From: Thunnus maccoyii | Lineage: Eukaryota > Chordata > Actinopteri > Scombriformes > Scombridae | Reading direction: 5' to 3' | DNA length: 64,000 nt | NCBI RefSeq assembly: GCF_910596095.1 | Contig: NC_056545.1 | Coordinates: 21,723,067-21,787,066, forward strand | In this document: one piece after another, positions 5,378-64,000 of the stretch | How positions within the stretch are numbered: position 1 is the first letter of the stretch | Layout: every line of letters begins with the position of its first letter | The notes under the pieces: generated by a model | Seen by the model: only the letters and a program-made list of their open reading frames with translations | Databases searched by the model: none | What the model was told of the DNA's origin: nothing | Position numbers and translations under genes: made by a program

Positions 5378-8300
5378 ATGATGGACGACACAGAAATAGA
5401 GCCAATGGACACGCCTTCGGGCAGCACTTCCCTTGGGGATGCGGCGTCTGGTGGAGGGCAAAGTATGCCGAATGAAGATGAAGATGAAGATGACGGGCTG
5501 TACTACATCCCTGAGAGAAGACCTTCTCTGGACTTGGGGCCGACTCCGATGGATACAAGCCACTGGTACTGAGAGATTTTTCATATACTAGCCCAACTGT
5601 TAGGTAGCAACTCATTTCTACTGCAAGTCATGAAAATAGAGTTAAAAAAGAACTATTTTGGTCTGATTAATAATTAGAATAACCTATTAAAAGTATATCT
5701 TCCATCCTCTAAATGTTTGCATCATCAGTACATTTTTTATTTTATATTTTTGTTATGCCCAAAAATATAACATATATTACCCAAATGTTCACATGCAAAC
5801 GCATATATGAGTCTAAGCAGAATCAATCCATACCAAGAAAATGGGAAAAATTGAATAAAAATACAAAAAAATACAAAAAAGGTTAAAATGTGGCTGCTTA
5901 TCTGGCACGTTTTGTAGAAGCCTTTGATTGCTTGTCGTGTGGCCACTAAGCAATCAACAAACTGCTATCCTCCTTTTTTTCCCAGGCATTATGTGGAACA
6001 GGCCAACTCACCAGTTCTGAGCTACAGCTCAATGTCAAGTGAGGCGAACTCCGACAAAATGGATGAAGACAATGCATCTTCCACGAGGTAAAAACAAGAC
6101 CGACTATACAGAGAAACTAAAATCAGTCTGTAAATTCAGGCATTCATCACATTTTATCCAGGAAGTAGCTGTGCTCGTAATATGTATCTTGTAATATACT
6201 GTAACTTGTTGTGACTTTCAAACTAATGATTTCTTGTAGTTACACTGAATATAATTCAAACCCTCTTGTCATCTTGGTTTTAGGGTCCAGCTGGAGAGAA
6301 CAGGCTCATACTCTAGCTGCTATTCTTTGGACAGTGACGACTGTGAAAAAAGAATCCCCAAGTAAGAAATACACCCATTGCAAGCAACTTACACGTTAGT
6401 ATGTGTTATTATATAGAACACTAAAGTATGTTCACATCTCACCAGGGTTAAAAGCAAAGATGATGCCGTTGCAGAGCCTACTGACACACTTCAGTTAATC
6501 GAAGACCCAAATGTAATTAGGCATCCTTCCCTGACAGTGGGATTTACTTTGAAGGTCAGTTTGTATCCCCTCATGTCATTTTTTTTTTTAAAGAAATGAA
6601 ATATAAAATGCACTCCCTCTGAAAACAACAGCACTGAATTGTATCACTCTTTCGGAATCAGGCTATTTGTAGTACCCTTGGGAAGCTGACAGAGGGGGAC
6701 ATGAGGAGGTTCAAGAGGATACTGTGGAAGCATTTCCCGCAGGTGTTCAACACTCCTCCCCAAAGCATGGACATGTTGGACCTTGTGGATCGGTTGCTCG
6801 AGTGTTACAGCCTAGAGCTTTCTTTGCAGTTGACCAAAAAACTTCTTGAGGAAATGGGGAGAAAGAAGGTGGTTGATTATCTCGAGACTTTGTGCATCCG
6901 AAGTAAGTATGCTGCTGCATGTCTTAATGATTTATTACTGTTAATCTGAACAAAAGGAACGGACAATGTATTTACATAAGGTCATTTTCATTTTTTCAGA
7001 TGAGGTACGTTACGATTTAAGTGAGACTCTGAAGAAGAGATACGGGGAAGTGTGTGAGGATTTGAACAAGCAGGGAGAGAAGAGGCCCCTTGATGATGTC
7101 TATACCACTCTCTACATAACATCAACGAGTGATAACGGCCCAAATATTGAGCATGAGGTCATGAAGATAGAAAAGCAGGACAGCAACCGGGAACCAGGGA
7201 AACCGCTTTCTATTAAAGATATCATGAGCGAAGAATGGCTGGAGGAATCAAACGTAAAGTTTCTTTTGATCACTGGAATGGCAGGGTCAGGGAAGTCTAT
7301 GGCAATCAGCAGGTTAATCCTTGATTGGATTGAAGAGAAGTCTCACCAACATGTGAATTTTTTGTTTCCTTTGCCGTTCAGAGAACTCAAACAGTTTGAG
7401 GGTGTCAAGATCTCCCTGTTGGAAATAATACAGACACTCTACCCAGAAACAAAAAAATTGAGGGATGAGGACTTTAGATCTGAAGATTGCAAAATGTTGT
7501 TTGTCTTTGACGGCCTTGATGAGTACAGCGGGAAGCTTGACTTTGAAAACACTGAGCTTCTCGGTGACCACACAGATCCCACCACCCTTAACGTCATCGT
7601 GGTCAACCTCCTCAGAGGGAGGCTACTGTACCGCGGAATGTTTCTGGTCACTTCTCGGCCGCAGGTAAGGCGCTGCATCCCTTGGGATACACATTATGAT
7701 GAGAGAGACATGCGTGGTTTCCGTGACGATGAAAAGGACGAGTACTTTAAGAAGAGGTTTAAGAACCCAGATGACGCAGCTCGAGTTATCGCGTATATCA
7801 ACTCTTTCAAAACCCTCCGCATCATGTGTCATTTGCCCCTGTTTTGCTCACTAGTGGCAGATGAGTACCAGCACATATTAACGAAACAGGGTCCACAGGC
7901 AGAGCTGCCCAAGAGCATCACCTTCATGTACACAAAACTGATGCTGGCGCTCATAGGGCCGTATCGCGCAGATAGAGCTCCAGTTCTTAGCCCAGATAAA
8001 GAGAAGGACTTTCTCATGAAACTTGGAAAGTTGGCCCTCACCATGCTTGAACAAAACAAGTTCAAGATCACCAGGTCTGACTGGAGAGATGTTGGAATCA
8101 GCGATGAGGAAGCAGTTGTTAACAGCGGACTGTGCATACAATATGTCACAAAGCCATACGTCTTGTTTCAGGAGAAAGTCGTAAGCTTTATCCATCCCAC
8201 CATGCAGGAGTACCTCGCTGCCCTTTATGTGTTTCTGTCCTTTAGAAACCAGGGGAAGAACATTTTTGAGCAGCAGTTGAAAGAGAAGCTCTCACGGATG

Positions 8301-8597
8301 TTCAAGGGGAACAAGGTGATGGAGCTGTACAAGTGCGCTGTGGACAAAAGCCTCCTTTATGAGGATGGCAAACTGGACATTTTCCTGCGTTTCCTGTTTG
8401 GGATGGCACGTAACATCAACCTGGAACTTCTCAAACCGTTCTGCACCTCCACTATGAAGTGGCCATCTGCCCTCGAAGATGCTACCGCCCTCATCAAGAA
8501 GAGGATCAGAGAAAATCAGTATCCTCAAAGGAATGACAACCTTAAGCACTGCTTGGAGGAGCTAGGTGTGGGAGCACGAGAAGTGGCATCCCTTTGA
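5378..8597 (+). CDS. FISNA-NACHT NLR-family protein with PYD-like domain, no LRR
   Basis: Cytosolic innate immune sensor of the fish NLR (NLRC3/NLRP-like) expansion. Coding exons: 5378-5565, 5986-6087, 6284-6361, 6446-6554, 6662-6902 and 7000-8597, giving 771 aa with all phases consistent. The first exons encode an acidic, Ser-rich leader (NEDEDEDDG; SYSSMSSE; SYSSCYSLDSDDCEKR), typical of the short N-terminal exons of fish NLRs. Residues about 160-239 form a PYD/death-fold-like helical domain (FKRILWKHFPQVF, DLVDRLLECY). The last exon holds FISNA (about 240-325), then NACHT with Walker A GMAGSGKS at 332-339, Walker B LFVFDGLDE near 407, a TSRPQ sensor motif, and the winged-helix signature FIHPTMQEYLAA near 636. 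The protein stops after the NACHT-associated helices; I see no LRR or B30.2 exons before the next gene. Possible poly(A) signals lie at 9266 and 9434. The ligand is unknown. Confidence 0.9.
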
Positions 8598-24726: not shown

Positions 24727-27700
24727 CTTTGTGTGTCTTTGTGTGTCCTATATGCATTGTATATGCTATTGTCTGTAATAAAGTGTTAAAAATAGAGGTC
24801 TTTCTGTGCCCAGCTGAGATGTGGTTTCTTGCCTCTGGTGGTGGAAACCGGATGTTTCTGTTCGATGCCAAGGGAGAACAGAAAGTGTCTCTGTGTGATC
24901 AAAAATAAAATGTACTTTTTGTACTATTGTCCATTATATCACATTTTTAGATACTGTAGGCATTTCCCTAAAATGTCTGCAGAATGTCCTGATTTGTTTT
25001 CTATGTCTGATGAATTCAGACTTCAGTACCTGTTTACAAACCAAACTCAGTTTGTGTTAAATGCTTAACAGCAGCATATGAGGGCACTTTATGTTTGATG
25101 TGATAAAGGCACAGTCTGCGTCTCAGATATGAGTTATGTATTACAGCTGTAATGTCTAAGGAGCAGGACTGTGTTCACATTTGGTTTGACATTGATTGAC
25201 ATGTATGGAGGTGTGTTATATTTGTTCTTTCTTTTTCACTCTCATTATGTTATGTTATTGCCCTATTTGTCATGTTCATAGTGTCTTGTAAGCCCATGCT
25301 GGCTGGGCACCTTTTGGTGATACTTTCAAAATAAATTTCCTGCCTACCATAGTAACTGGCTAGACAGGTGTTAAGTGCGGGCCTCATTTGAGTTAATTGA
25401 TCAGAAAAGGGAATCTAACTAACAGAATGTGTGTTGACCACTGCAATTACATTCATCAACTACACTGAGAACTTAATTGAAACATTTCCAAATAACTAAA
25501 CTTGAGGACTAATAATGTTGTCTTTTTGTATTTCAGATGGACGACAGGAGGGAGTTACTTTTGATAAAATCACATCTCGCATCCAGAAACTCTGCTATGG
25601 GCTCAATTCTGACTTTGTGGACCCTGTAAGTTCAAACCACTTTAAAGTTATCTAAAAAGTCAATCGAAAAAAAAACTTTTAAAAAAACCCCATTAAGTTC
25701 TGGACTGATGGCTCTACACTGTATGTACTCTATAACTCTTTATCCCCGTTTCTGCAGGCTCAGATCACGATGAAGGTGATCCAGGGTCTGTACAGTGGAG
25801 TCACCACTGTGGAGCTGGACACTCTGGCAGCAGAGACTGCCGCCACCCTCACCACCAAACATCCTGACTATGCAATCCTGGCCGCACGAATCGCCGTGTC
25901 TAACCTGCACAAAGAGACCAAGAAAGTCTTCAGTGGTGAGTACAAGTCTTAATATAACAAATATACTGATCAACTCCACCGCGAGTTACATGATATTATA
26001 CATGTATTTCTAAATATGGGACATCATGATGCCATTTGGCGCAAGATTTATAATAAATGGTGGTTCTGCACAATGTGATGTTTCACTGTTCACAACACTT
26101 TTCACTGACATTATACACATTCTTCCCTTTTTCCTGTTGTAGATGTGATGGAGGACCTGTACAACTATGTCAACCCGTTAAATAAGCGTCACTCCCCTAT
26201 GATCTCCAAGGAGACGCTCGACATTGTCCTTGATAACAAGGCTGTAAGTCACATTCCGTGTCATATTTTGTTCATATTTTCATTGCAGTTACATTTTGCA
26301 TTTCTTAACATCTTGTCTTCATTTTTTGCAGCGCCTCAACTCCGCCATCATTTTCGACAGAGACTTTTCTTACAACTTCTTCGGCTTTAAGGTAATTTCA
26401 ATGGCCAGTTACATTCAACATCTCATACAGATCCTTGGAGTATAAATCTAATTTGTCCTTTTGCTCTATAGACTCTTGAGAGGTCTTATTTGTTGAAGAT
26501 TAACGGCAAAGGTAAGAGATGCTTGTTCTAAAACTTACTGGGAAGCATGTTTATGGCTGCAGAGACTTTTGTTAGTTGGATATTTAAGTTTGTTTTTGTT
26601 GCTAATTAACCTGTTTTTCTGTAGTTGCTGAGAGACCCCAGCACATGCTAATGAGAGTGGCCGTCGGGATTCATAAAGGAGACATTGATGCAGCCATTGA
26701 GACCTACAACTTGCTGTCAGAGAAGTGGTTCACCCATGCCTCCCCTACTCTGTTCAACGCTGGCACCAACAGGCCACAGCTGTCCAGGTAAGGACTGCAA
26801 AAATCTGGGTACTGGTAGGCTATGAGCGAGGTTAGGAAGGTCAGGAAAGCCCTGATGCTTTTTGTTAAACTTGATTTTTTTTTCTCATTCAATTTGTTTG
26901 GGTTTTTGCAGTTGTTTCTTGCTGGCCATGAAGGATGACAGTATTGAAGGTATTTACGACACACTGAAACAGTGTGCCCTCATCTCTAAATCAGCCGGAG
27001 GTATTGGACTGGCAGTTAGCTGTATCAGAGCAACAGGTGGCTATATTGCTGGGGTGAGTATAATGAACACCGCAGAGAGTTTAATCAAGCAGATATAGAG
27101 GAGCTTTTTTTGTATTATGACACTTTTAAAACATGTGGTTCTTGTTTTTCAGACTAACGGCACATCCAACGGGCTGGTTCCTATGCTTAGAGTCTACAAC
27201 AATACAGCACGTTATGTTGACCAGGGCGGCAACAAGGTAAGAATTGAGATCTACCTCAAATTGTCAAAGATGTGTAATAATGCTAGAAATTGTTGTTCTT
27301 TAGACATTTCTGGTAGTATGTTTAGTCACCTGACTCTGTGTTTGCTTGTTCAGAGACCTGGGGCCTTTGCTGTGTACCTGGAGCCGTGGCATTCCGATGT
27401 GTTTGACTTCTTGGAGTTGAAGAAAAACACAGGTAAAGAGGAGCAGAGGGCCAGAGACCTGTTCTTCGCACTGTGGATCCCAGACCTCTTTATGAAACGA
27501 GTGGAAAGCAATCAGGTGAATATTATTTATTATAATTTTCTCCCTATTTCAGATCCCACATAAGTTTTTGTTTGAACTTAGCAATATATTTTATAGTCCA
27601 CCATATACTATCTACTTATTGTTCCTCTCCTGCTCTTGTAGGACTGGTCCCTGATGTGTCCCAGTGAATGTCCTGGGTTAGAGGAGTGCTGGGGAGAGGA

Positions 27701-32679: not shown

Positions 32680-38611
<5,932 letters not shown>

Positions 38612-41199: not shown

Positions 41200-44100
41200 T
41201 TACTCCTTTCTTGATTCTGCGTCCTCCTTCATCTTCTGCTCCTGCATGCGACTCCGGGTGGAGCCTACATGAAAAAAAAAAAAACACAAAACATCATCAC
41301 CATGTCAGAGGAACATACATCCACCTGCTACAAGCGACATGATTGACAGCAAGAACACCTACAGTACAATAATAAGGAATATCAAAAGGAAAACATGGGA
41401 CTTTATATATATATAAAGCCGTTTTCACTTACTCATCTCTGCAAGTTTCTGTATCAGTGTAGAATCTCCACCAGATTTGCTGTAAAATAAAATATATACA
41501 ACTTAATTGCAGTGTGTGTATACACTACTGTTAATATACATATGTATTAAATTATGTATGCACTATTTCTGGTTGAGACTCTCTTTTTTCCCCTTTGTTC
41601 TCTTTTCTTGGTTGTTATAAAACATACTCTAGTTGTTACGGCAATGCAGAAGGATTATTGTGCATTTAAATAACACAGTGACTAACCTGCCATCAGCTTC
41701 ATCTTGCCCGTCCACATCGAATCGTAACCTCTTCAGAGGCTTTGGAGTGGAGCCCAGATCCAGACTCCTCTTAAAAGAGCGATCGCTGCTGTTGACCATC
41801 TGGTTGATCTTCTGGAACCGATTAGACGGCTGCAGATGAAAAGAAAACAAACAAAAAAAGGGTGAGTGAGGAAGAAATCATTGGAGTTGTCAAATTATAT
41901 TTTTTGATATACTTCAGAGCAAACAAAAGAGACACATACTCCGAAAGATTCACCGATGGATACCAGCATTCTGTAAAGGCACAAAACAAAAGGATGTAAG
42001 TGAAAGTCCAGTTTAATGGCCTTTTCAAACAATTAAACAAGTCGTCCGAGGAGAACATCAATCTGCTGAGAATATGAAGAACTGACCTGGAGCGAGGAGT
42101 CATGATACCCGGGGACATGCGTGCGCTCTTCAGAGGGGAGATGTACACGTTGTTGCTCCCAGGCACACGTAGAGGTGAATTGGGGAATTTATAAGGGCTG
42201 CGTGGTATTTGTGGGATTGGAGAGAGGGTAGGTGGCTAGAAAAGAAACAACACAACAATGAAAGGGTATAGTAGGCATGATCATTTGTCTGATGTATCAA
42301 AATCAAAGTGTAGCCCCTGACTTGACTGGGAAGGTGTCTCACCCTGGTGGACGCATACTGCAGGATGTTGGTTTTCAACTTCTGCATGAACACCTGGTTG
42401 TAGAAGACGATGATGGAGTCATAGTGGCCCTCAGTGATCAACACGTGCTTAAAGGTCTGCAACACAAAAAGAGACACAAAGTTCAAAATTATTTTATGTC
42501 ACAATTCAACACAAACCCTGATGATTACTAATGGATGACTAATTCATGGACGTTTTTGAAATGTTGCATCACCTCTTGGCTGGCGTTGGGCATGTTCTTG
42601 TATGCCGTGACAATGGTCTTGAAGCGCAGATCAACACTCTTCACTTTACATATGGCGTACATGGCTGACATCATCAACTACAAGAAGGAGAAGAAGCACT
42701 TGTGAGAAAATACACACGAAGAGAGAAGCTCAGAGAGCAAGAGACTGGGACAAAACAAGACAATGGGAGAAAAGAAAACTCTTGTCTGGTTACCTGGTCG
42801 AGGTGACGGTCTCTCATCAGCTCATATTCGTGCTGCAGAGTGTGCTGGAACAGGGTCCATATGATGGGCTCCAGTTCAGGGTGGGAGGACAGCAGGTAGG
42901 AGCAGAGCATCTTCAGCCTTGTGTAGGCCAGGCGGTACACTGCAGAGAGAGCACACCATAGACAGTTGGACACAGAGAGCAAAAGCAAACAGCAACGGAA
43001 ATGGAGAAAAAACCTGAAGGCTACGTTTTAAACAAACAGAACAAATATTAGTTGTCATTTTCTATTATTTTCTTCAAGCTTTTACTAATGTAATGGCTCA
43101 TGTTAGTATTGTAGTCATTTCTTGTTTATTAAACAGTCATATTGGAAATCCATCACTGACAAAAAAGTGGAGATTTTAGCTTGTAAAATTACATCATATT
43201 AGTACAGTGGAGGTGGTCATTTTTCTACACATTTTTATTATATAGAATAAGTTAAGTTTAATACAATATATCTTGTAGAAACTATGACTAAACCAACAAA
43301 TAAACTATGTGTGAGAGCTTGAACAACATCTTACATTTTTTATAGAAGAGGCTAAGAGAGTTGGACTTTGTGTGTCGGGGAGTCTGGCCGGCAGCCTGGG
43401 AGGCCGGTTGGGTCTGAGGCTGAGGGGCAACTTGAGAGCTGGGGGACTCGGGAGGCAAGACACGAAGGCCCGGACGCACAGGGGACAGATATCTGTAAGG
43501 ACAGAGAACAAGTGACACGTGTTAACGTGTGAAAATTTCTTTTAAATGTGAACCACAAATCTAATTAGATGGTTCAGAATGTAGTAGAAGAAGAGGTTCA
43601 AGAGTGCAGACAGGATGTCTCGTTGGAATGATTCATGCAATTTAAAAACTTTCCTATACTCTTCCTTTCCCATTGCAAAATACAAGATCTGACGTTTGAT
43701 TTTAAATACCATGCTGCTGAGCTATGATTACATGAAACTGACAAGCTCTTGTACTCATGACTCACACGGTTTTGCAATCGCTAAAGAAAGTTTTAGAGTT
43801 TAACAAGGTGTCTTAGCTGTTGCATACCAGCAGCTGAAAGAGAGAAAGATAAATTGTGGGGAGGTGGACTCACAGGTCAGCTGCGGTGTGGTTGTGCTGC
43901 AGTGGTTGGCTGAAACTGGCTGGGGCCTCCACCTGTTCTGCTGCGCCGCCCTCATGCTCCTGTTTCAGCAGCTCAAACAGAGGCGAGCCCTGCGGAGACA
44001 CAAACACAATGATTTACATTTAACAAGACAATCAGTTTAAGTGCATCTAAATCATTTATTCAACTTATGAATACTTTTGCTCTTTTTGCTCCTTCGCTGA

Positions 44101-47100
44101 AAATTATTTCAAAAAACAAGATTTGAACAATGCCATCTCTGTCAAGGCTAAAACAAAATAATTTATAAACAATTAAACCTTTTCAAAAAAGCAAAACTTG
44201 ATTTTTACTACTTTAAATTGCATTCCATCTAACCTGAGAGCACAAACTGATATAAACATAACATACTAGAGTTAAATTAGAGGTAAAGTTAATCCCTGCA
44301 GTCTTTCCTGAAGCCAAGAAAGTTATGAAGGAGCCTACTTTTTTTTGTGTTTGCAAAGATCACTTGTTCACAAAAAGAGAAAATTGTAAATGGGCTGAAA
44401 ATACGTTATATCATATTAAATACAAATAATTACTGATGTTGATGAAGTATGAAAACTATTTGAATACTAGTGTTCCCATTAGAAGTAATTAATTAATGGC
44501 AACTGGTTTATATTATCTCATTAACTTCATGAAAAGTAGATCTGTTTGGTTTTGCCTGGAGCAACACATTTGGCAGTACCAGCACAATAAGAAATATGTA
44601 TTTATAATTTCATTTTACCTGCTTAATTTCCTTTGCAAAAGGATGAAAGGATAACAAGGGACTGATACAACCCTGATAATATTCCTCGTTATATATTGAC
44701 CTAAGGACACTCCCTACAGTATCTTATCTGATTTAACTGAGTCATGGAAACTGAAAACAAATAATTATTTCAATTAAAAATACATATCTAGCCTACACAC
44801 ACTCACTCACACACACACACACACACACACACAATTATCCTTGGCAGCTATGAAACATTTAAATCCAGACTAAAAGACATTCAGGTCACAGTGGACGTGA
44901 ATATCAGTGTGTCCACACCAAGACAAAAATCAGAGATGAGATCACACAGGAAGTGGGTGTGGCTCCCTACTAAGAGATTTACACAGCGACTGCAGGTACG
45001 GACTTGCTGTTAGAACATTCTTCATGTCATACTTACCACACCTGCTGACGTCACTGACACATCTCAAAAAGTACAACTAGTATTTGACTGTTTTAACAGC
45101 ATCCAGTGACGTATGCAGTAATGAATAATATTGCAACATTTGATTAGTAAATTCATTGCTTGAAATCCCAGGTTTCATTGTCAACTGTAGTTCCATGTTT
45201 CATTATCATTTCATAAGTTATCTGATTATTTGCTTGTAAACTGAAAGTGAAACATCTCAAACAGTCATATGAGGAAAATATGATAAAGCTGCCATATACT
45301 ATAGTGGTAGGCAGATAATTACATTTCCTGCTGAATACATAAATTAGTTTGCTGTCTTGGGAGGTTGGTATAAATTCAGCAATCAAGAAGACAGACATCC
45401 TCATTTAAGTTTGTGATTAAAAAAAATAAAAATAAAAAATTATGGGCCACACAAACTTCTAATAGGGTCCCATTATTCATATTTCAGGTAGGTGCAAAAA
45501 CAAAGCAGCGATGGGAGGACTTTGGTCCTGGCAGAGGCTCCTCCCTTTGTTTCAACAGTTCAGTGAGTTCTTTGTGTTGGGAGTCGTCTGACATGCAGCC
45601 TGCTACGAGGTCTCTGACATACAGTCAGGCAGGAGCAGAGTAAAACCTCTGGAGCATGAGAGTATAGATCACCGTGCACCCCCAGGCCTGCTGCAGGAAC
45701 AAACAGTAGAACAAGAGACAGGAAGAAGCGCTCGACTGTTCACAGAATTGAGGAGAGGCGTGTGACTCTTCACTCAAAGGGGATAAACATTCGAACTGAG
45801 AAGGACAACTGAAAATACAGTCATCTTCACTTGAATGAGGATTATAGGACGTGCAGGAGAGCTTTCACATACGGAAAATTGCTTCTAACTTTGGATACCG
45901 ATACAGGTATTTTGTGGAGTTGCCGTCTACTTTTTTAACATAAAACCACACAAACTGAGCATTCTTCCGTATTTCAGAGGGCTGTGTTTCCTGTCAAATA
46001 ATATGTACCTTTTCCCTGCCTGTTGCACATGGTTGGAGAAACAAATGGATTTTTATGACTGACACGTACATGATTGAGAAAAACTAAGTATTCCAAATTT
46101 ACCAGCTTGATTTAAAGATGTATAATAGCACCTTACAAAGCACCCTGGCTGTTTCCATGAACTGCAACAAGAGCGATGATTTCAAGTACCCTCTCTACAG
46201 CTCGGTTTTCAGCCTGGTATTTGTTTTCGGACTTTTATTCAACATGGTGGCCATGTACATTTTTGGCTGCACACTGAAGCTGCGAAACGAGACCACCACG
46301 TACATGATAAACCTTGTGGTTTCAGACTCTCTCTTTGTTCTCAGCCTGCCTTTTCGGATTGTTTACTTCATTAAACGTGAATGGCTGTTTGGAAGTGTGC
46401 TCTGCAAGATCTCTGTGGCCCTGTTCTACACCAACATGTACGGCAGCATCCTCTTCCTCACCTGCATCAGCATTGACCGTTTTCTGGCCATTGTGCACCC
46501 GTTTCGGTCCCAGGCCATTCGTACTAAGAGGAATGCCAAACTGGCCTGCTGCACAGTGTGGGTGATGGTTCTTTCTGGAAGTATACCCACGGGGTTCCTA
46601 CTGGACACCACTTCACCCAAAAATGTCAACTCCTCCACATACTACTGCTTTGAAAACTACTCTAGAAAACAGTGGAAGTCTGAGCTGTCCAAGGTGGTGG
46701 TGTTTATTGAGACTGTGGGCTTTATTATCCCATTGCTGCTAAATGTCTTCTGCTCCGTCATGGTGCTATGGACGCTGAAGAAACCCCAAACCCTCACCCG
46801 TGGAGGCAACCTCAACAAGGCTAAAATCTTGAGGATGATCATTGTGCATCTGCTCATCTTCTGCTTCTGTTTCATCCCCTACAATGTCAATCTCATCTTC
46901 TACGCTCTGGTTCGCTCCAATGTCCTACAGGGATGCGATGCCGAATATGTGGTGAGAACCATCTACCCCATTGCTCTGTGCATAGCAGTGACCAACTGCT
47001 GCTTTGATCCGGTCATTTACTACTTCACTTCAGAGACCATTCAGAGCTCCATTAAACGCAAGTCCACAGTATGGCACAAAGGCACCAAACTTTTCGACAG

Positions 47101-50100
47101 ACTACATGGGGATAGCACACAAAGCAGTCCAAGTGCAGTACACAAAAGCCTGGCCCTGAGGACTTTGAGATCCAAAATCCTGGACAATGAGTCCACAGTC
47201 TAATGACACCTTTGTTATGTGACATGATTAACAGTTCAGTGGGTATTGCTGGTGAAACTTCAATCCGAGGACGTAGGTGGAAGCAGAGTGGCCTAGAAGA
47301 TCATAACAACAAACAAACACAATGGTTTCTAAGGAGTCGCTTTCCTATATACTGGACACCACAGAGACATTTGACTGGGACTTAAGACACTGATCTCTTC
47401 AGTCAGTAAAGGAGTGGATCACATCAAAAGAAGAAAGACTTGAAATAATAAAGCATGTTGCAGCATGAATACCCTATGTCAGGGTAAGAAAAACTCTTCG
47501 TCCTATCATGGAATGAGTTTGAGTTTAAAATGCACATAAATTGTCATTCTGAGTAAATTCTCCTTGAGGAAACTTCTGCTTTAGCACAGCTGAACCAGTA
47601 TTACAGCTCTTCTTTATGTCCTTTATCATTTGTAAGTATTTGTGGCCTTTCTAAGGCATTTAAGCACTTTATAGAGCACCATGTTCTATAACAGCTTTGC
47701 CCCTTAATCCGAAAGCGAATAAAAGAATTATTAACTTAAAACAGTTTGTTTAATGGAGTTTGAAAAATAACTACTTGTTTGAAAGAGTGGGGTGAGTTGA
47801 GTGAAATGTTTGTAGGGTATCATTTGTTTATATGTCACTCATTTTGGGTGCCACCAAATCATTTGTGTAGACTGATTAGTCATACAGGTACTAACGACAC
47901 ACACCAGTAACTGTGGCTGCCCTCTGCCACGAATGCACAATGTCACAATCAATGAAATGCAGATTACAGGTATGGTCAATAATTGACCACTGCATAGCAC
48001 TGGCCAACACTGCACTAACACTACCTTATAGCCTTATCTTAAATGGTCACAATGGGGGAAAGTCTCTGCCAAACAAATAAATGTAAATATAATTGAGACA
48101 AATCAAGAAGCCGGCATATACACTACAGTATGTCTGTATATGAAACTAAATTAGAGTGTGTGGAAGCTACATTTCTAGCTGAATTAAACAAGAGGAATTT
48201 TACATCAAAATCCTAATCACACACTAGATTTTGCAGGTTATTAAAACAAAGCATCTCAGCTCTTAGACTGACTACATGTCTGTAAGTTTCCTTGGTAAAG
48301 TGAAAACACAGCTCACAGAATAATGAAACTTGAATGTATGTGAAATATTTGTTCCTTCTTGTAAAAGCTATGTGCTGCAAGACCGAGCGCTACTACATTC
48401 CTGTTGAGAGGATTCGCCCAAGGGTCGGCACTGACAAGGCTAGACTCATCACCTCCACTGCACTGAGGAGAAGGATTGTGAAACCAAAGTATGCGAGCAA
48501 CAACATGCCTCTTGAGGGAAAAGTGCATTTACAAAATAGAGCACTTTGGTGGTTGCTGCAATCCTAAAACAAATCCAGTGAATAATGGAGGCTATAAACT
48601 AAATACGAGCATCGTAACAATTAGCAGTTTCTAGAACATCCATTTGGCATGTCCTCACGCTACTGCATGTAATACAATCAGACTCACTGTACATTCATGA
48701 AAAAGCTGGACTTTCTCAACTGGGCATAAAATTAATGATGTGTCCAGTAACTGTTTTATGCAGCAAAAATAACCCTGAGTCAAAGCTGACATGATAAGCA
48801 TACAGCGTATGGTTCACCCAGAAAATTTAAATGTGAACACACAAAAAATTGATCAAGATTTCTTTGTCAATTTAGAATATAGGTATACAATTAATGCTAG
48901 GATTGTTTAATTAAATTCAATAAAATAGAAAACACACCAGCTCATTTTCATTTGAAATGATAATCATAACATGAAGATTTAATTTCTGCTCAGGAGAATA
49001 AACCTTAACTGATTATTTTGTCATTAAGACATTATGTGCTTTTATAATATATTTCCATCCAATTTAAATGTGTCTCACAAGGGCCATGGATATAACACAG
49101 TGATGTGTAGCAAAGTCTTAATATATATATGCCACATTAGCCTAATATTCTCCCTCAGATTATTCAAACAGAGACTCAACTAGTTTAAACACCACTTTAA
49201 TTACATCCCAATTTGACTGGTGAAGTTTAGCTGTCAGTGGTGTGTATAGGAAAATGTGATGTAGATAATAAAGTGAATTAAAGATTTTAATGGGTTATTA
49301 ACATTTTGACATCATATTTATCTTCATCAGAGTATAAAGACTTGTTTTTAAGCTTTGGGCTTTATGTCTGACTGATTAAGACCCAACCCATGAACTGACT
49401 TGTTCCTCCCTGAGAGCGCTGGTCCCAAAGCTGACACACACGATACAGTGCTGCGTGACTTCATCCTTGAGTGAATTATTGCTAGTCTTCTCAGCAGGCA
49501 GACAAATATAGTTAATGATTAACTCAAATCACTCGTTTATGTTTTTAGCAAGCAGCCATAAACATGACTCCCACCACGTAGGTAATCAAACAGTCTGTGC
49601 TTAATTTTAAGGCTTATTACAATATTCAGTTCAATGACAATCAGGTGATCTGTAATGTTCAATAAACATTTTCACTACATAAGCTGAAAAAAAATTGGGC
49701 GATAAGAACAAACCACAAAATGTGTGTATGATCGAACAGAGGAAAAAGGGGAGAGGGAGTGAGAGAGGCACCCTGGCTTGTGTGTGAGCGTGGGCGTGAG
49801 CTGCTCCAATCAGAAACATGTGAACTGCTACAGCATCCTGACAAGTTAACCTGCTGCTGAACGCCAGCTGACTGGAAACAACTTTATCACAGTGTCACTG
49901 CGTTGATGAGTTCCAGATACTGGTGAGTGATGAAATAATGACTTATCTGTTTCAATATTCTCTCCAGCAGAGCTGATTGTGCTTGAAAAAGCGAGTTTTA
50001 CATGTATATAATAGATTGAGGAATGTAATTCTGACAAATTGAAAACAGCAATTAACTATATAAACTTATCGGGGTTTGATAGAAATTCATAATTTCAAAT

Positions 50101-53100
50101 TAGTTTTTGAAGGAATAATGTTTGTGCATTTCTTTGCTTTCAACAGCAAACCAATATTATATGTCAGTAGAAAAAAGGTTTAAGATTTATCATTTCATTT
50201 ACAAGATCACTTATGGCTTTAAAAAAAAAAAAAAAACTAGGAGCAAAGGAAGAGAAAATGCACTTTTAAATGCCTTCATAGACATAAAACTTCAAATGTC
50301 TTATCAAATATTGTTATTGAGAATGAAAAAAATGTTTATTCAGACTACTTGAAAGTTACCTGAAAGTTAACATAAAATGATAATAAAGGAATCATCAATA
50401 AATAAATTAATAATTGTATTTTTGAAATGATTCAAAGTAGCCTATTGCAAGTATCATTAGTTTAGTGGCAGCTCTCTTGATCCAACTCAATAGTCATTTT
50501 GTGACTGTTGTGTGTTGAGTTGCTGAACAGTCTAAACTTCTGGTGAATTAGTCACAAAAAAGCAAAATTAGGTAAAATGACAGATGGAAAAAGTCTCAAA
50601 AATCACGTACTAATAAAGAGACTAAAAGAGACAACATTAGACCCTTCCTAATAACTGAATATTTGCTTAACGCACTAAATACAACATCCCAAAAAATTAC
50701 TATCAAGTTACAAAACAAAACAACTGTGACAATCTCAACAAAAGACGACTTCTTTGACATTTACTAAATGTGTATTTACAGCAGGGTAATATTATTACAC
50801 TATGAGGTGCTCACTATGTCTTTTTTCCAACTCTGTGAAAACAGGTGTTTGCCTGTTTTACAAGACCAGGAAGTTAGGCAGTTAAAACTTTATTGACAAA
50901 ATTTGTCTGACTCTCGTCCTGCATAGCAAACATAAATTCAGTTATGTCAGTTGCAGCAGTGTATTTATGTAATCTCTGTATATTTACATTACATAAAACA
51001 GCATGTTTTGTATTCATTAAGTTTTTACTTGCCACAGGTTTAACTGCTTTAATTTCCTCCAGATATGAGAGCAACACAGTGATTTACAGCGTTGGGAAAA
51101 GCAAACCCCTCTAAGATATGGAGCTGTGGAACATGACCGATGATCCAGCCAAGCCATTATCACCTCTGTCTAACTGCACTGTGGACACCAGCTACCGCTT
51201 CACCTTCTATCAAGTGTCCTACAGTGTCATCTTCCTGCTGGGTTTGGCCACCAACAGCCTGGCTCTGCGCAGACTGTGTCTATCTCCCTGCACCATGAAC
51301 AGCACAGCCGTCTACCTCATCAGTCTGTCAGCTGCCGACATGTTTTTTGTGATCTCTCTTCCCCTGAGAATCTACTACTACCACCAAAAGGCCCGAGCCT
51401 TGTCCTCCAAGACAGCAGACTCGTCCATTTGGACTCCTGAGGTGGCGTACTGCCAGCTCACTTTCACCCTCAAATACATCAGTCTGTATGGAGGCATTTT
51501 CTTCCTGGTTTGTATCGCTGTGGATCGTTACTGTGCTGTAGTGCACCCGCTGGCATCGACACTCCGCAGGCTGCGTGTTGCACAGCTTGTCAGTGGTGGG
51601 ATCTGGTGCTTAGTGTTGGGGCTCAGTGTGAGTCTGCCTCTGCTGCGCTCTGCAGCTGCCCGCCAACACCAGCCCTGTCTACTGGACCCTACCTCGCGAC
51701 GCCACCGCACCATCATCCTGGCAGCCCTGGGCATAGTGCTGGGTTCGTTTCTGCTGCCCACTGTGCTGCTTCTCTACAGCTACTGCCGAGTGCTGAGCGT
51801 GCTTCGCCAGCCGAGGCACCGCTCTCGCAGCCAGCGCCGCAGCCGCCAGCACACTCTCACGGTTATTTACTGGGTGCTGGCTGTCTTCCTGCTGTGCTTT
51901 GTCCCCTATCACATCAACCTGCTGGGATACACTCTCACACATGTGGGGCTGCTGCCCAACTGTGGCCTTGCCAAGGTGACCAAGGCTATGCATCCCGTGG
52001 TGCTGTCACTAGCCAGCTCCAACTGCTGCCTCAACCCACTAATCTACTACTTCTCCAGCAGCCTGGTGCACAAAGAGGCTCCCGGTGGTGGAGGCAGTGG
52101 CAGCCAGTGACACAAATCGTTTCACACCATTACAGAAAAAGACCCTTCCTTAAAAAAAGGACAAGGTCTTAATAGGACTTATCTTATGATCTCTTTACTC
52201 TATTTATACTGTGTTCACCTCTTTGCAAGTGAAACTGCAGCTAACTATGTATGTGTTAAATATATCATCTGTATTTTTGCATGAATGGCAATAGGTTGAA
52301 CCGGTTTTGTGTGCATTCATTTTTAGCACACTGCTGAGTGCAGCATCTCTAGAGCGCTCTAGGCTTCATCATCATGCTAAGAAGCAGTCAGCTATAATTG
52401 GCTTAGTTATTTTGTTCAGCATATTTTATCAATACAACTTTAATGTGTTTGTGAAATATTGATATGCAATGACATTTTTATATAAAGTGAATGTTGGATT
52501 TATGTGGAACCGGTGTCATTTCACACAAGTGCTGTTCAAACATTAAGGAGGAATTTATAAGTTCATCTTAAATGGAATTTATGTTGTTCTTTAAGTGTAG
52601 TGATATTTCTGTTAATAGTTTTATCTTCTCATGGACCAATAAATGCTACATAAGGTGGATGTATTTACAGTATCTATGTGTCTCTAAGCATGAATCTTAT
52701 TAAAATGCTGTGGTGTTATTACCAGCACGTTGTAGTAGTGATTAGAGATAAAAAACTGACCGTCCTCCATGCAATCCTCTCCATGATGAGGTTCTCGCAG
52801 GTCTCCAGATGTTTGACGATATCTTTGCTCATGGAGTGGTCAGCCTTGATGAAGCTCTCGATGACTTTGTAGAAGTCAAAGGCGGCGAGGTTGAACACAT
52901 CCAGTATCCAGGGGAAACACAGGTCTGTCTCAGCTGAGTCAACACCACCTCCATGGTTCTTATAACTGCTCTCTAATCATGAGACACAAACAACATTATC
53001 ACAAAGTGTCGCACAACTGTAGGACACAAGACAGATATCTGAAGTATTAATATGTGATAACGTCTATTATTAAATTGTAAGCAAATAACGGGACACACCT

Positions 53101-56100
53101 CCATATGTTGCCATGACCACCTCCAAGGCGCAGGCCAAAAGTGATGTGTGGAATGTGGAGTCATTGAGGAGTTTACTGGAATGGAAATCATATGACTCAG
53201 CTCAAGACAAATAACGCTTCACTACATATCAAAACAGAAAGCATGCATGCACTTCCAATGTTCAGCTGAAGTGTAAGTGAACACACAGCTGCATTAACGA
53301 GCTTCATTATTCCACACCGATTCAATAGAGAATAAAATTTTTTTTTAAAAAAACATACCTGAAATTCTGCACAGACAGTCGCTTCTCTTCCTACAAAGTG
53401 AAAACAGTACAATCAATTAGAGGAAAGACAATATCAATTCTTCACTTTATATGACTTGTGACAACTTGTGCTATATAGTCAACACATATTAGAATAATAA
53501 AATGTTGAATAAAACATTTAAAAAATAAATCAAACAAGACACTGTACCATTTTGAGCATTTCCTCCATGACTTGGTAATACAGCCTGACACCGAGAGCAA
53601 ATCTCTGAAAGGCAAAAGAAATACATAAGTTAGACATACAATAATTTGATCATAGCATGTGTTGCCGTTGTTGCTCATCATTTTCTGGAGTGACAGTTCT
53701 TACCTGCATGCCAAGTACAGTACTCCGCGGGCCGACTGCCTGACCAAACCTCTGGCTGTACGCGTTTCCGAGAGTCTCCAAACGCTTCAGCACGTCCTGC
53801 GTGGGGTCCACGGTGCAATTCTGATCACACGAAAGAAGGAAACCGGAAATCCATGAAATTAAGGTAGAAAGATGACGTTTCATGAGATGTTTTAGTTAGT
53901 GGTGACACACTAGAGACCCACTTTGAAATACGTAGCCAGTTCAGTAGATGGCTGGTCCCCACTGGAGATGAGATCAACCCTCAACTGCTGAATGGAGGTC
54001 ATGGCAGCTCTGATGAGACATAATAAAAAAAAAAAAAAAATCAGACAGTGCTGGAGGACAGACTACGACATAAACACAGAACAATTCACACAATTAACTC
54101 TGAACAATAAAACAAAAAAATCTGAGAGCAAAAAAGTCAAAAGTTTGGTTTTCCATTAGTGGAAACATATACATAATTGTGACAATTAGGGTACACAAAG
54201 CTTAAAGTTTGTAATCTAGTACATCTTATTGTGAATACAAAGCCGAAAAGCACCCTACACACAGTCTATTGCTTTTTCTGTCCCAAACTACCATGAACGT
54301 TCACTTCAGCAGCTCCCACACACACCAGCTGACAGCTGAGCAGCCAACAGTGTATATAGACTCTTGGGTGAGAAGGTTTGAAGCTGTACAAATATTTTTT
54401 TTTTAAAAAGATGCCGCACTGCAGAAAGCAAATACAAGTATCCAGTCCTTCTCCTCTGGATAAAGAATTATCAAAACAATCAAGAGCAGGTGAGTGACTG
54501 CTTTACTGCTCACCTGATTGGCGTCTGGGGAGGGATGAGTACAGCATCGTCTTCTTGCAGGTTCTTCTTTGGCGTTCTCTCTACCTGCGCTCTGAATGCA
54601 GGAGAAGATTATTAAAAACGTTTTTCTCAATTATTTTAATAGATCAACCAGACCAACATCAAAATACCGAATAGTGGAGGAAAAAAAAGAGATTACATTT
54701 CGACTTTAGGTGCAAGAACGGTCTCATCTCCGTCAAAAAACAGCCGTCCATCAAAGTCTCGAGTCTTGAGGTAGTGCTCTTCATATTGTTGGCTGAAGTC
54801 ATTCACCTGGGGTGAAAATAAAAGCTCAGGGTTAATCATAGTAAGATGTCTCACCACATACAAAATTGAACACCATCGCTGTGATACATTTTGCACTAAC
54901 TGTGTTAAATTTTATCTAAAGCTTTCACAGTAAATCATTGTTGCATTGTACATGAGCTGTTTATGTTACCAGTATTATATTTGATGAGGAGAAAATCATC
55001 TGTATAAGAACTATTTCACAGTTGAAGTAAGGCTAGCTACTCGCTATGCTGGTGGAAATCTTGAGCTTCAACAACAAATCAAATTTTATTTGTTAAATGT
55101 ATTTACTGCATTTAAAATATTATTCTGAAAACTACAACTACACTGCAATCCTAGACATCAGACACCAACTCAAACCTGCAGGGATTTGACTACAACTGTG
55201 TCATTACACAAACATAAAATGAATAAAATTAGAAAACAACAATAATTTGGCTTTAATCAGAGTTCCCTCATAGACACATCTCGAGTCTGAATACACATCA
55301 GCCAGCTGACTCTACAAGATGCACTGAGTCTGGAGTCTTTGTTGAACTTCTACAAGACTTGTCTCAAGAGTGTATAATGGGAATTGTGCTGTTTATCTAT
55401 ATCTGATAAGATCAATCTAAATAAAAGAAATAGAAATAATCTGTTTATTACAGACAAATCTGAAATAAGGAAAAGCTCCAACTTGTCTGCAACTAGATCA
55501 GAACAGATTGAATCTCAGACACATCTTTGTCCTTAAACTATCTGGACCACAATCTCACTCAAACCAAACAAATATACCAACAAATGAATGGATCGGCAAA
55601 TGATTTACTTTTATACTGACGTCTATATTCTATTTTTTTTTTCAAATTTACCTTGTCCCCTCATAAGTCAAATCAATAAGTTGAGACTCACGCATTATTT
55701 ATATAAGACACTATATAAATAACGTGCACCACCTGTCCGTTACTGGGGCGGTTTAACAGTAAACTACCCCAGCTGTCAGCAAACAGTAGCATCCTGCCTC
55801 AGCTGTTTTCATACCTGCCACTGTAATATATAACCCTGACACACTACAAAGGATCCCATGCTTGAGTAGACATTTTCCTGACACCACGTATGTGAAAACA
55901 AACACAGATGAGCAGCAAAGAGAACGACCAACAGCTGTCAGACACTCGAATGTTCAATAAAGACATCAGCAAGCAGGAAGAGACAACTAATGGAAAATGT
56001 AAGTGCAGAGCAGACAGAGTGAAACCAAACAGTCAGGCAGATGTTGTGATGACCTACCTGAGGAAAATCTGCAGATCTTGAAAGATCCAATGAGTCCAGG

Positions 56101-61929: not shown

Positions 61930-63783
61930 TCACGCCTCGCTTCCCATGTCCCACCTCATCGCGGTAAAGTCCATGTCTGTGAGAGTGACGGTGAACGGAG
62001 CCTCCACTCTGTCTGGCTCCACGCGCTCCTCCACTCTCTGAGTGCTGTTCAAGTTGTTCACCCTCCAGGAATTTAGAGGTCGAATCGATTTCTGGAAACG
62101 CTAAAAAAAAAAAAGAACCAGGAGACAATCACTAACCTTCCTATACAGGAGATTTCATTTCATCTACCGTCCTCTATATGTAAACAGGTGCAACAGTGAC
62201 AATTTGAGCTGCATCGTTATGTGTGAGCGTGGCAGAGGTGTAACTGGACCTCACAGAGACAGAATGACATGAGAGGTGGTACTGACATCTTTCAGAGTTC
62301 CAGTTTCCTTGCTGATGGCCACAATGGCCCAGATGAGGATCTGCAGACAGCAGGTCGCGCCCATGCACACCCCCAGCGCTTTGCCCCACCGTGGATACAC
62401 ATAGGAGCCGTAGTGCAGCGGCGTGTTGTACATCTCAATGAAGATGTAGGTCAGGATGAACTACAGCCGCAAGGGGAGAGACACATAGTTAGCAGAGGAA
62501 TGTTTCCTCCCAACAAAAAGCAACAATGGCAATGGAAGAAGAGCCAACAAAGAAATACTGCAGGGGGAGCTCAGATTGAATGTCAGTTTCTCCTCTTGAA
62601 TTATTCAAAGCTGCTGTGAAGATTTCGGCTCAGTTGGCTACATTTCAAATTTCAAGTTATTCTTGGTGCAACTTTTTTAGCAACCGTTTCTATTTATATA
62701 ACTGATTTGTCATACTTAACTCTCTCCAAGTTTCCAATAAACTCTACATTTATTTGGTGGGATATTTTTAACTCTATTAGACTGGGACAGCACAGTGTCT
62801 CACCCCTCATCAAATTACTCTGACAGAAAGTGCAACAATACAGCAGAACAAAAGGTGGCATCAAACAGGTATTTCTATATCAATCAGCCTTTTTGTACAT
62901 AGTAACTCTGCTTCAAGTAACATATAAGAGGAAGTGGCAAGAATAAAGAGTGACGTAACACGGACTGTGCAACTGACACAAACCAACAACAAATTTAATT
63001 AGAAGTGAAGGTCATTACTGGACTTTATGTCCTTAACAATTGTCACAATTCTTAATTTGACAAAATCATATGATTGCTTTTAACCTCACAAAATACATTG
63101 TTGACTCTCAGATAAACAGAATCTGAAAAGTAATGTTCCTTATTCCTTATTTTTAGTTTCAGGTGCTCCTTGAGACTGTTCTGATTTGTAGACGATACTG
63201 AAACTATGTAACACACGAAAAGAAAGTACATTGTTGCTGGATGAAAAAAAAGTGAGAATTTCTAGGAACCTAAATGGATTTATGCCTAAAAAACATAACT
63301 GCACATTGTGTTATAAAAGACAACAAATTGAATTTATTTATCTTTGAGCAATCTAATTAAATGAAAAATCACGGAAGGTAAACACAGTCATAACTTCTTC
63401 CCCATTTCATCATTTGTTTGTCAAGTGACTGCATAAACAAGGCAGATCATTTTATTGTGGACAGTTTGTTTGTCAACTTCAGTGAATTTAAAAATGCTAT
63501 AAGATCAGACAGAGCCAGCGACATGACGTTATTCTGTCTTGCTTTCCTGAAGGTTTTGGAAATATCTTGAAAAGAAATCATTCATCATAGTTTCATTCAT
63601 TCATAGTTGTCATGATTACAATTAACCCTTGTCTACCATTAACAAAGCTAAGGTGTTGACTCACCAGCAGAAGAAACGGAGTGAAGAAAACCCAGCATGC
63701 TTTGAAGTAAAGCAGCACTTTGGTGCACCAGGGAGGGCAGTGACAGATCATGTCAATGATGTCTTTACAAAACTGGTTGACTC
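61930..63783 (-). CDS. SLC6 family Na+/Cl- dependent transporter, C-terminal exons (partial)
   Basis: 3' end of a neurotransmitter/amino-acid symporter gene running off the right edge. Exons (minus): 63665-63783, 62287-62460 and 61930-62100. They encode GVNQFCKDIIDMICHCPP, then TM11 (FKACWVFFTPFLLLFILTYIFI), a short loop YNTPLHYGSYVYPRWGKALG, TM12 (GVCMGATCCLQILIWAIVAI), and a cytoplasmic tail from SKETGTLKDRFQKSIRPLNSW to DFTAMRWDMGSEA and the stop. The PLxYGxYxYPxWGxxLG layout between TM11 and TM12 is diagnostic of SLC6. Subfamily (GABA, proline, glycine or amino-acid branch) cannot be set from this much. NNLNST holds an N-x-T motif, but it lies on the cytoplasmic side. Confidence 0.85.
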
Positions 63784-64000
63784 CTAATAGCAGAATTCAT
63801 TAAAGAGACACATATTAGGAAGCCTGCAAAGTTCAATATTATTATTGGGACAACAGACAATAAGACATGTTCAATATGTTATTAAGAGCAACAAAAAAAA
63901 AAAAATTGTGAAAACTGAAAAAAAATAGAAACGGTGTGACATCGCATTAAAAACTGTTTCTTTTCTTTTACATCTTGCTAAACATCACATGTGCTGGATG
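63784..64000. other. intron of the SLC6 gene, window edge
   Basis: Intronic sequence upstream of the exon ending at 63783, with A-rich runs near 63892-63927. No further exon is visible before the edge. Confidence 0.5.

Follow-up and report, generated by a model that had tools for sequence, protein, structure and literature searches.

Two receptor genes in an intron of rb1

The window analysed here is a stretch of 64,000 nucleotides from Thunnus maccoyii (NC_056545.1, 21,723,067-21,787,066; contig C13 of the genome searched, which comprises 782 Mb in 54 contigs), in which one intron of rb1 harbours two G protein-coupled receptor (GPCR) genes on the opposite strand, namely lpar6 and a second gene of P2Y type. 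The nesting of LPAR6 in RB1 was already known. Human RB1 intron 17 measures 72 kb, more than any other intron of the gene, and contains the reverse-oriented P2RY5 (= LPAR6) with a single coding exon (PMC2361346); an earlier note on this DNA had stated for mammals that LPAR6 lies in this intron on the opposite strand. The same note had held that a nest of two receptors is not the mammalian state, and for humans this agrees with the available parts of PMC2361346 and PMC4132050, which mention no second receptor. The two-receptor nest is real, and its meaning depends on orthologues.

For the delimitation of the host intron, rb1 was mapped by tblastn with a human RB1 sequence as query, and the resulting minus-strand pieces span 58575 down to 41731. 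The boundary between human exons 17 and 18 was assumed to lie at about residue 565/566, and alignment together with splice sites splits the flanking tuna exons at this residue: one ends at 52761, with the donor GTCAGT, and the other starts at 43989, preceded by the acceptor CTCCGCAG. The host intron therefore comprises 43990-52760, and the splice sites thus led to the same coordinates that the earlier note had given for the intron between the human-17 and human-18 equivalents. Its claim of two intact opposite-strand receptors in this intron likewise held; lpar6 and the second frame both match Pfam 7tm_1. The features of the nest are as follows:

43990..52760, minus strand: rb1 counterpart of intron 17 of human RB1, host of the nest (alignment of the flanking exons to human RB1; GT...AG ends)
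52761..52920, upper limit approximate, minus strand: rb1 counterpart of human exon 17, 3' end at 52761 (tblastn piece 53177-52767 and splice end)
43873..43989, lower limit approximate, minus strand: rb1 counterpart of human exon 18, 5' end at 43989 (tblastn piece 43986-43873 and splice end)
46118..47203, plus strand: coding exon of lpar6, 361 amino acids (open reading frame, homology, Pfam 7tm_1)
51118..52110, plus strand: coding exon of the second receptor, P2Y-type and rhodopsin-like, 330 amino acids (open reading frame, Pfam 7tm_1, motifs)
45906..45978, plus strand: putative small intron in the 5' untranslated region (UTR) of lpar6, upstream exon ending at 45906 and next exon starting at 45978 (GT/AG signals only)
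49922..51063, plus strand: putative 5' UTR intron of the second gene, upstream exon ending at 49922 and coding exon starting at 51063 (GT/AG signals only)
52638..52643, plus strand: AATAAA hexamer belonging to the second gene, with roughly 120 bases left before the position at which rb1 exon 17 ends (52761)

With 8,771 bp the host intron makes up 52% of the rb1 stretch found, and the remaining 16 gaps between rb1 pieces measure 71-1,242 bp, a count in which some pieces themselves cross small introns and a few exons may have gone undetected. The intron has a guanine plus cytosine (GC) content of 39%; the coding region of the second receptor reaches 57%, with 69% at third positions. A scan of 43000-54000 against Rfam at gathering thresholds gave no match, and the direct repeats listed inside the intron are short and imperfect and give no hint that a tandem duplication took place recently. 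Between the two receptors lies a small open frame (48370-48567) with no Pfam match at E 1. A misplaced fragment at the rb1 locus is unlikely, though this falls short of proof, because the locus sits in a chromosome-scale contig.

Both receptor frames carry the motifs DR[YF], [ND]PxxY and FxxCFxP, in the second receptor at positions 136 (DRY), 306 (NPxxY) and 257 (FxxCFxP). With a 7tm_1 match at 9.2e-44 covering profile positions 2-260 of 260, the latter is predicted with confidence to be a rhodopsin-like (class A) GPCR. Its cysteines C20, C282, C112 and C187 stand at the places of the P2Y disulfides, where C20 presumably pairs with C282 (N-terminus and third outer loop) and C112 with C187 (transmembrane helix 3 and second outer loop). 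Both genes show, as sequence signals, an AATAAA downstream and splice-like sites upstream of the coding exon; that the poly(A) signal of the second gene lies only about 120 bases from rb1 exon 17, as the earlier note had remarked, follows from its start at 52638. A structure model of the second receptor calculated with AlphaFold2, for which the lpar6 of the window was the sole other row, reached a mean predicted local distance difference test score (pLDDT) of 41 and was discarded.

The second receptor has a 12-residue insert in its first outer loop and stops a few residues past NPLIYYF with a glycine-rich tail (52026-52110), so that its helix 8 looks truncated; a further coding exon is possible. 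Insert and short tail, together with the longest branch in the trees described below, would suit a decaying or non-functional receptor gene. Such decay appears highly improbable, as 330 codons free of stops and frameshifts persist at about 30% identity to the relatives, the motifs are kept, and pocket residues are retained above expectation.

Relatives and placement of the second gene

A search of the genome with the second receptor, which belongs to a large family, produced at least 130 matches with E values no higher than 0.001. Among the matches listed, the best after the gene itself were an lpar6 gene on contig C6 (33% identity, 153 bits) and the lpar6 of the window (31%, 139 bits; 30% in the alignment). 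No close copy occurred among the scored matches, the nearest being 31-33% identical. When the genome was queried with P2RY10, gpr174 and the two lpar6 genes scored ahead of the second gene, which came fourth. Relatives outside this genome were sought in viral contigs, where 4 stretches fitted a pattern, and in bacterial and archaeal genome contigs, where 42 did, and none was confirmed in either. Arrays of P2Y-type receptor frames were seen on C4 (at least 23, 28.66-28.95 Mb) and C19 (at least 11, 24.0-27.1 Mb), and two sampled C19 genes group with P2RY8 (97/95).

The lpar6 of the window matches best zebrafish LPAR6a (469.8 bits) and human LPAR6 (408 bits), and on these matches it is identified as the orthologue, or a teleost co-orthologue, of human LPAR6. 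The intact gene on C6 (L002, G000:C6:26887337-26888413) is 68.8% identical to it, and in the surrounding region (26,860,001-26,920,000) there was no match to rb1 or to other receptors tried, which means that lpar6 can exist outside the rb1 nest. Since two trees (95/68, 85/35) place the C6 gene with zebrafish lpar6a and not with the window copy, the fork being open in a third, the window gene may, at a guess, be the other teleost lpar6 copy.

The comparison set consisted of 43 rows, of which 27 and then 19 were used for trees. Besides the second gene it included 26 other genes of the same genome, hand-picked from the match list (L002, L004-L028), to which the lpar4 and p2ry10 genes of contig C8 were added; L013 covers part of gpr174, and the joined gpr174 took its place. 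In an earlier tree of 41 rows, before the addition of fish p2ry10 and lpar4, the second gene shared an unresolved fork with P2RY10/GPR174 and LPAR4/5/6; in the best trees of the two later sets it joins P2RY10/GPR174 with weak support (74/67 with 27 rows, 58/49 with 19 rows). A recent copy of lpar6 was considered as well and is ruled out by the approximately unbiased (AU) test, which rejects a grouping of the second gene with LPAR6 only (p 0.023 with 27 rows, 0.009 with 19 rows), and by the identity of 30%.

Several results weigh against a place beside P2RY10/GPR174. The second gene forms the longest branch in the 27-row and the 19-row tree, and the AU test does not reject a placement with LPAR4+LPAR6 (p 0.092 and 0.17). 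After removal of the 13 columns of the ligand contacts treated below, the P2RY10/GPR174 grouping is absent from the best tree, without being rejected (p 0.14), and the same is true of the LPAR4/6 grouping (p 0.27). In phmmer LPAR6 scores 155.6 bits and P2RY10 145.4, and small profiles give the second gene 202 for LPAR4/6 and 176 for P2RY10/GPR174.

These values, with LPAR6 as the top PDB score, would suit a different origin, in which the second gene would belong to the LPAR4/5/6 side, for example to the clade GPR202, having arisen from the lpar6 ancestor by an ancient local duplication and remained next to it, with an LPA-like ligand (LPA, lysophosphatidic acid). GPR202 is placed near LPAR4/6 and was recorded from gar, four fishes, coelacanth and a reptile (PMC6504862). 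We nevertheless consider this origin rather unlikely: an alliance with LPAR6 alone is the one that the AU test rejects, profile scores also grow with the conservation of the profile, as the unrelated P2Y receptor L004 illustrates with 209 for LPAR4/6 and 167 for P2RY10/GPR174, and the LPAR4/6 rows differ in the pocket. Sequence alone leaves the deeper place of the second gene unsettled.

Residues of the ligand pocket

The residues of GPR174 around lysophosphatidylserine (LysoPS) are named in PMC9950150. A first set of 13 positions was compiled from them, including H7.35, which is named there in the context of docking only, and omitting F4.60, F6.55 and F6.59, which are also mentioned and all three of which differ in the second gene; the count was repeated with 16, 7 and 4 positions. 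In the smallest set, replacement of Y1.35, R2.60, K3.32 or R4.64 abolishes or strongly reduces the activity of GPR174 (PMC9950150). The second gene keeps all four, and the complete quartet occurred in only five of the 43 rows, the second gene and four P2RY10/GPR174 rows, with at most two of the residues elsewhere. These four mutation-critical residues are the best pocket evidence for a presumptive LysoPS-type receptor.

In the set of 13, the second gene shares 11 contacts with GPR174, as does fish p2ry10, compared with 12 each in human P2RY10 and fish gpr174, 7 in GPR183, 6 in LPAR6 and 4 or 5 in LPAR4. At positions of matched conservation 4.5 would be expected, and 11 was reached in one of 20,000 draws; with the three further hydrophobic contacts the second gene retains 11 of 16, a value found in one of 5,000 draws. 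The LPAR4/6 rows, which keep four to six of the 13 contacts, are without K3.32 and R4.64, and this speaks against a membership of the second gene on their side.

A LysoPS-type pocket is at the same time called into question by other counts. CYSLTR1, both human and fish, keeps 9 of 13 contacts and 10 of 16 in the larger set, and in the same draw test these two CYSLTR1 rows come out at 0.003 and 0.010 and GPR183 at 0.04, so the excess in the pocket is not exclusive to the second gene. Seven residues of the LysoPS network are conserved in GPR34, GPR174 and P2Y10 (PMC9950150); the second gene keeps five of these, equal to CYSLTR1 and GPR183 (fish p2ry10 has six), and control draws reach five in 160 of 5,000, hence this set does not discriminate. 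In addition, the F of the second extracellular loop (ECL2) is replaced by L and K6.62 by H, and it is possible that the pocket likeness arose by convergence in a fast gene.

Receptor clusters and known systems

On contig C8 (9190372-9249239) the order cysltr1(-), lpar4(+), p2ry10(+), gpr174(+), itm2a(-) was recovered with LPAR4, CYSLTR1 and ITM2A as queries, together with P2RY10 and GPR174 taken from PDB. It agrees with the gene list of human Xq21.1 in a clinical paper, i.e., CYSLTR1, ZCCHC5, LPAR4, P2RY10, GPR174 and ITM2A (PMC4593198). The trees unite LPAR4 and LPAR6 as sisters (100/98; 97/93), and the second gene adjoins lpar6 on the same strand, as p2ry10 and gpr174 adjoin lpar4 on C8. Because of this sisterhood and the shared arrangement of neighbours, the C8/X region and the RB1 region look like copies of one cluster. 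In humans RB1 and LPAR6 are flanked by ITM2B and CYSLTR2. The positions of rb1, lpar6 and cysltr2 are kept across human, mouse and zebrafish (PMC3510048). Within the window ITM2B had no match, and a CYSLTR2 query matched only the two nested receptors.

The cluster comparison also has points against it: the best itm2b match lies on C11, away from rb1, and the RB1 side consequently shows a match of gene order in two genes alone, which is thin. The neighbours of rb1 here are other genes, namely those for a TRP channel, a ribonucleotide reductase and, judged by a match below the cut-off, a neurotransmitter symporter. The first, which we take to be trpc2, lies past the 3' end of rb1 with a TRP_2 domain (37573-38247, minus strand), followed by an exon of the ribonucleotide-reductase large subunit (27117-27560, plus strand); upstream of rb1, a minus-strand exon (63657-63790) weakly matches the sodium:neurotransmitter symporter family, with 17.6 against a curated cut-off of 27 bits. 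The window further holds a fish-type NLR, a 543-amino-acid open frame (6966-8597) with FISNA, NACHT and NLRC4_HD2. A third neighbourhood of an ITM2 gene and a P2Y-type receptor was noticed on C12, where about 5 kb separate an ITM2-type gene from a gpr55-like receptor (L026, G000:C12:15781664-15789700).

The coding regions of lpar4, p2ry10 and gpr174 on C8 (L032-L034, G000:C8:9215001-9245000) fall into two or three frames, apparently interrupted by introns. Mammalian LPAR4, P2RY10 and GPR174 are single-exon genes. The one coding exon of the second gene, set against the split p2ry10 and gpr174 of C8, could be read as the mark of a later arrival, a retrocopy or translocated single-exon receptor that came to lie beside lpar6 by chance, and gene capture by intron insertion is a recognised route to nested genes. 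This appears improbable, however: none of the at least 130 scored matches offers a source gene of more than 33% identity, the second gene has a putative 5' intron, and its strand and flank agree with the order of p2ry10/gpr174 and lpar4 on C8.

Taken together, we see an even chance that the second gene is an ancient neighbour of lpar6 kept in the rb1 intron, an old P2Y-type, LysoPS-like receptor that would have been lost in mammals. More specifically, since all four critical residues are kept and the lpar4 of C8 has p2ry10 and gpr174 beside it, the gene might be the missing P2RY10/GPR174 sister on the RB1-side copy of the cluster, of LysoPS type and lost in mammals, with the mammalian nest as the remnant of a larger one; this is put forward tentatively, and we lean slightly away from it. 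We infer for it a common origin with P2RY10/GPR174, a ligand, G protein coupling, transcription and the mammalian loss in the following manner. A lipid-receptor cluster of early vertebrates would have been duplicated, whereupon one copy retained LPAR4 with P2RY10 and GPR174 (human X) and the other LPAR6 and the second gene in rb1, the latter gene being lost later in mammals. Transcription of each receptor gene probably runs opposite to rb1 from a promoter of its own, involves a single splice and stops at a separate poly(A) site before the rb1 exons are reached. While lpar6 would sense LPA as elsewhere, the pocket suggests that the second receptor senses a lysophospholipid, with LysoPS as first choice, or a close relative, and signals via a G protein; for P2Y10, coupling is almost confined to G12/13, and GPR174 uses both G12/13 and Gs (PMC9950150). 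The intron of an essential gene would make loss by rearrangement harder, which would help to explain why the second gene still lies beside lpar6.

If this origin is correct, the known LPAR6 nest in RB1 is what remains of an older nest that held several receptors, the presence of one such receptor on the human RB1 side versus three on the X side is explained, and an orphan fish receptor gains a testable ligand. An experiment on fish rb1 that deletes the host intron would also remove two receptor genes.

Searches of an open-access library that lacks most subscription journals brought up no report of a second receptor in an rb1 intron. Two unnamed clades without human orthologue, GPR202 near LPAR4/6 and GPR203 near P2RY10/GPR174, were described in a catalogue of 2019, both from gar, a few fishes and coelacanth (PMC6504862), and either may contain the second gene. 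The term 'rb1' is absent from the available text of that catalogue, and a search of the same library for the two names led to the catalogue and to a paper on N-lactoyl amino acids. Compared by description only, these clades likewise hold P2Y-type receptors near LPAR4/6 or P2RY10/GPR174. With P2RY10/GPR174 (Xq21.1, C8) the second gene shares the side and strand relative to an LPAR4/6-type neighbour and the four mutation-critical GPR174 residues; it is, however, only about 31-33% identical, has one coding exon, bears L for the ECL2 F and H for 6.62 K, and is nested in rb1, whereas p2ry10 and gpr174 on C8 are not nested as far as was looked. Compared with human LPAR6 in RB1 (PMC2361346), the position in the host intron, the opposite strand and the single coding exon are the same, but the tuna intron measures 8.8 kb instead of 72 kb and holds a second receptor.

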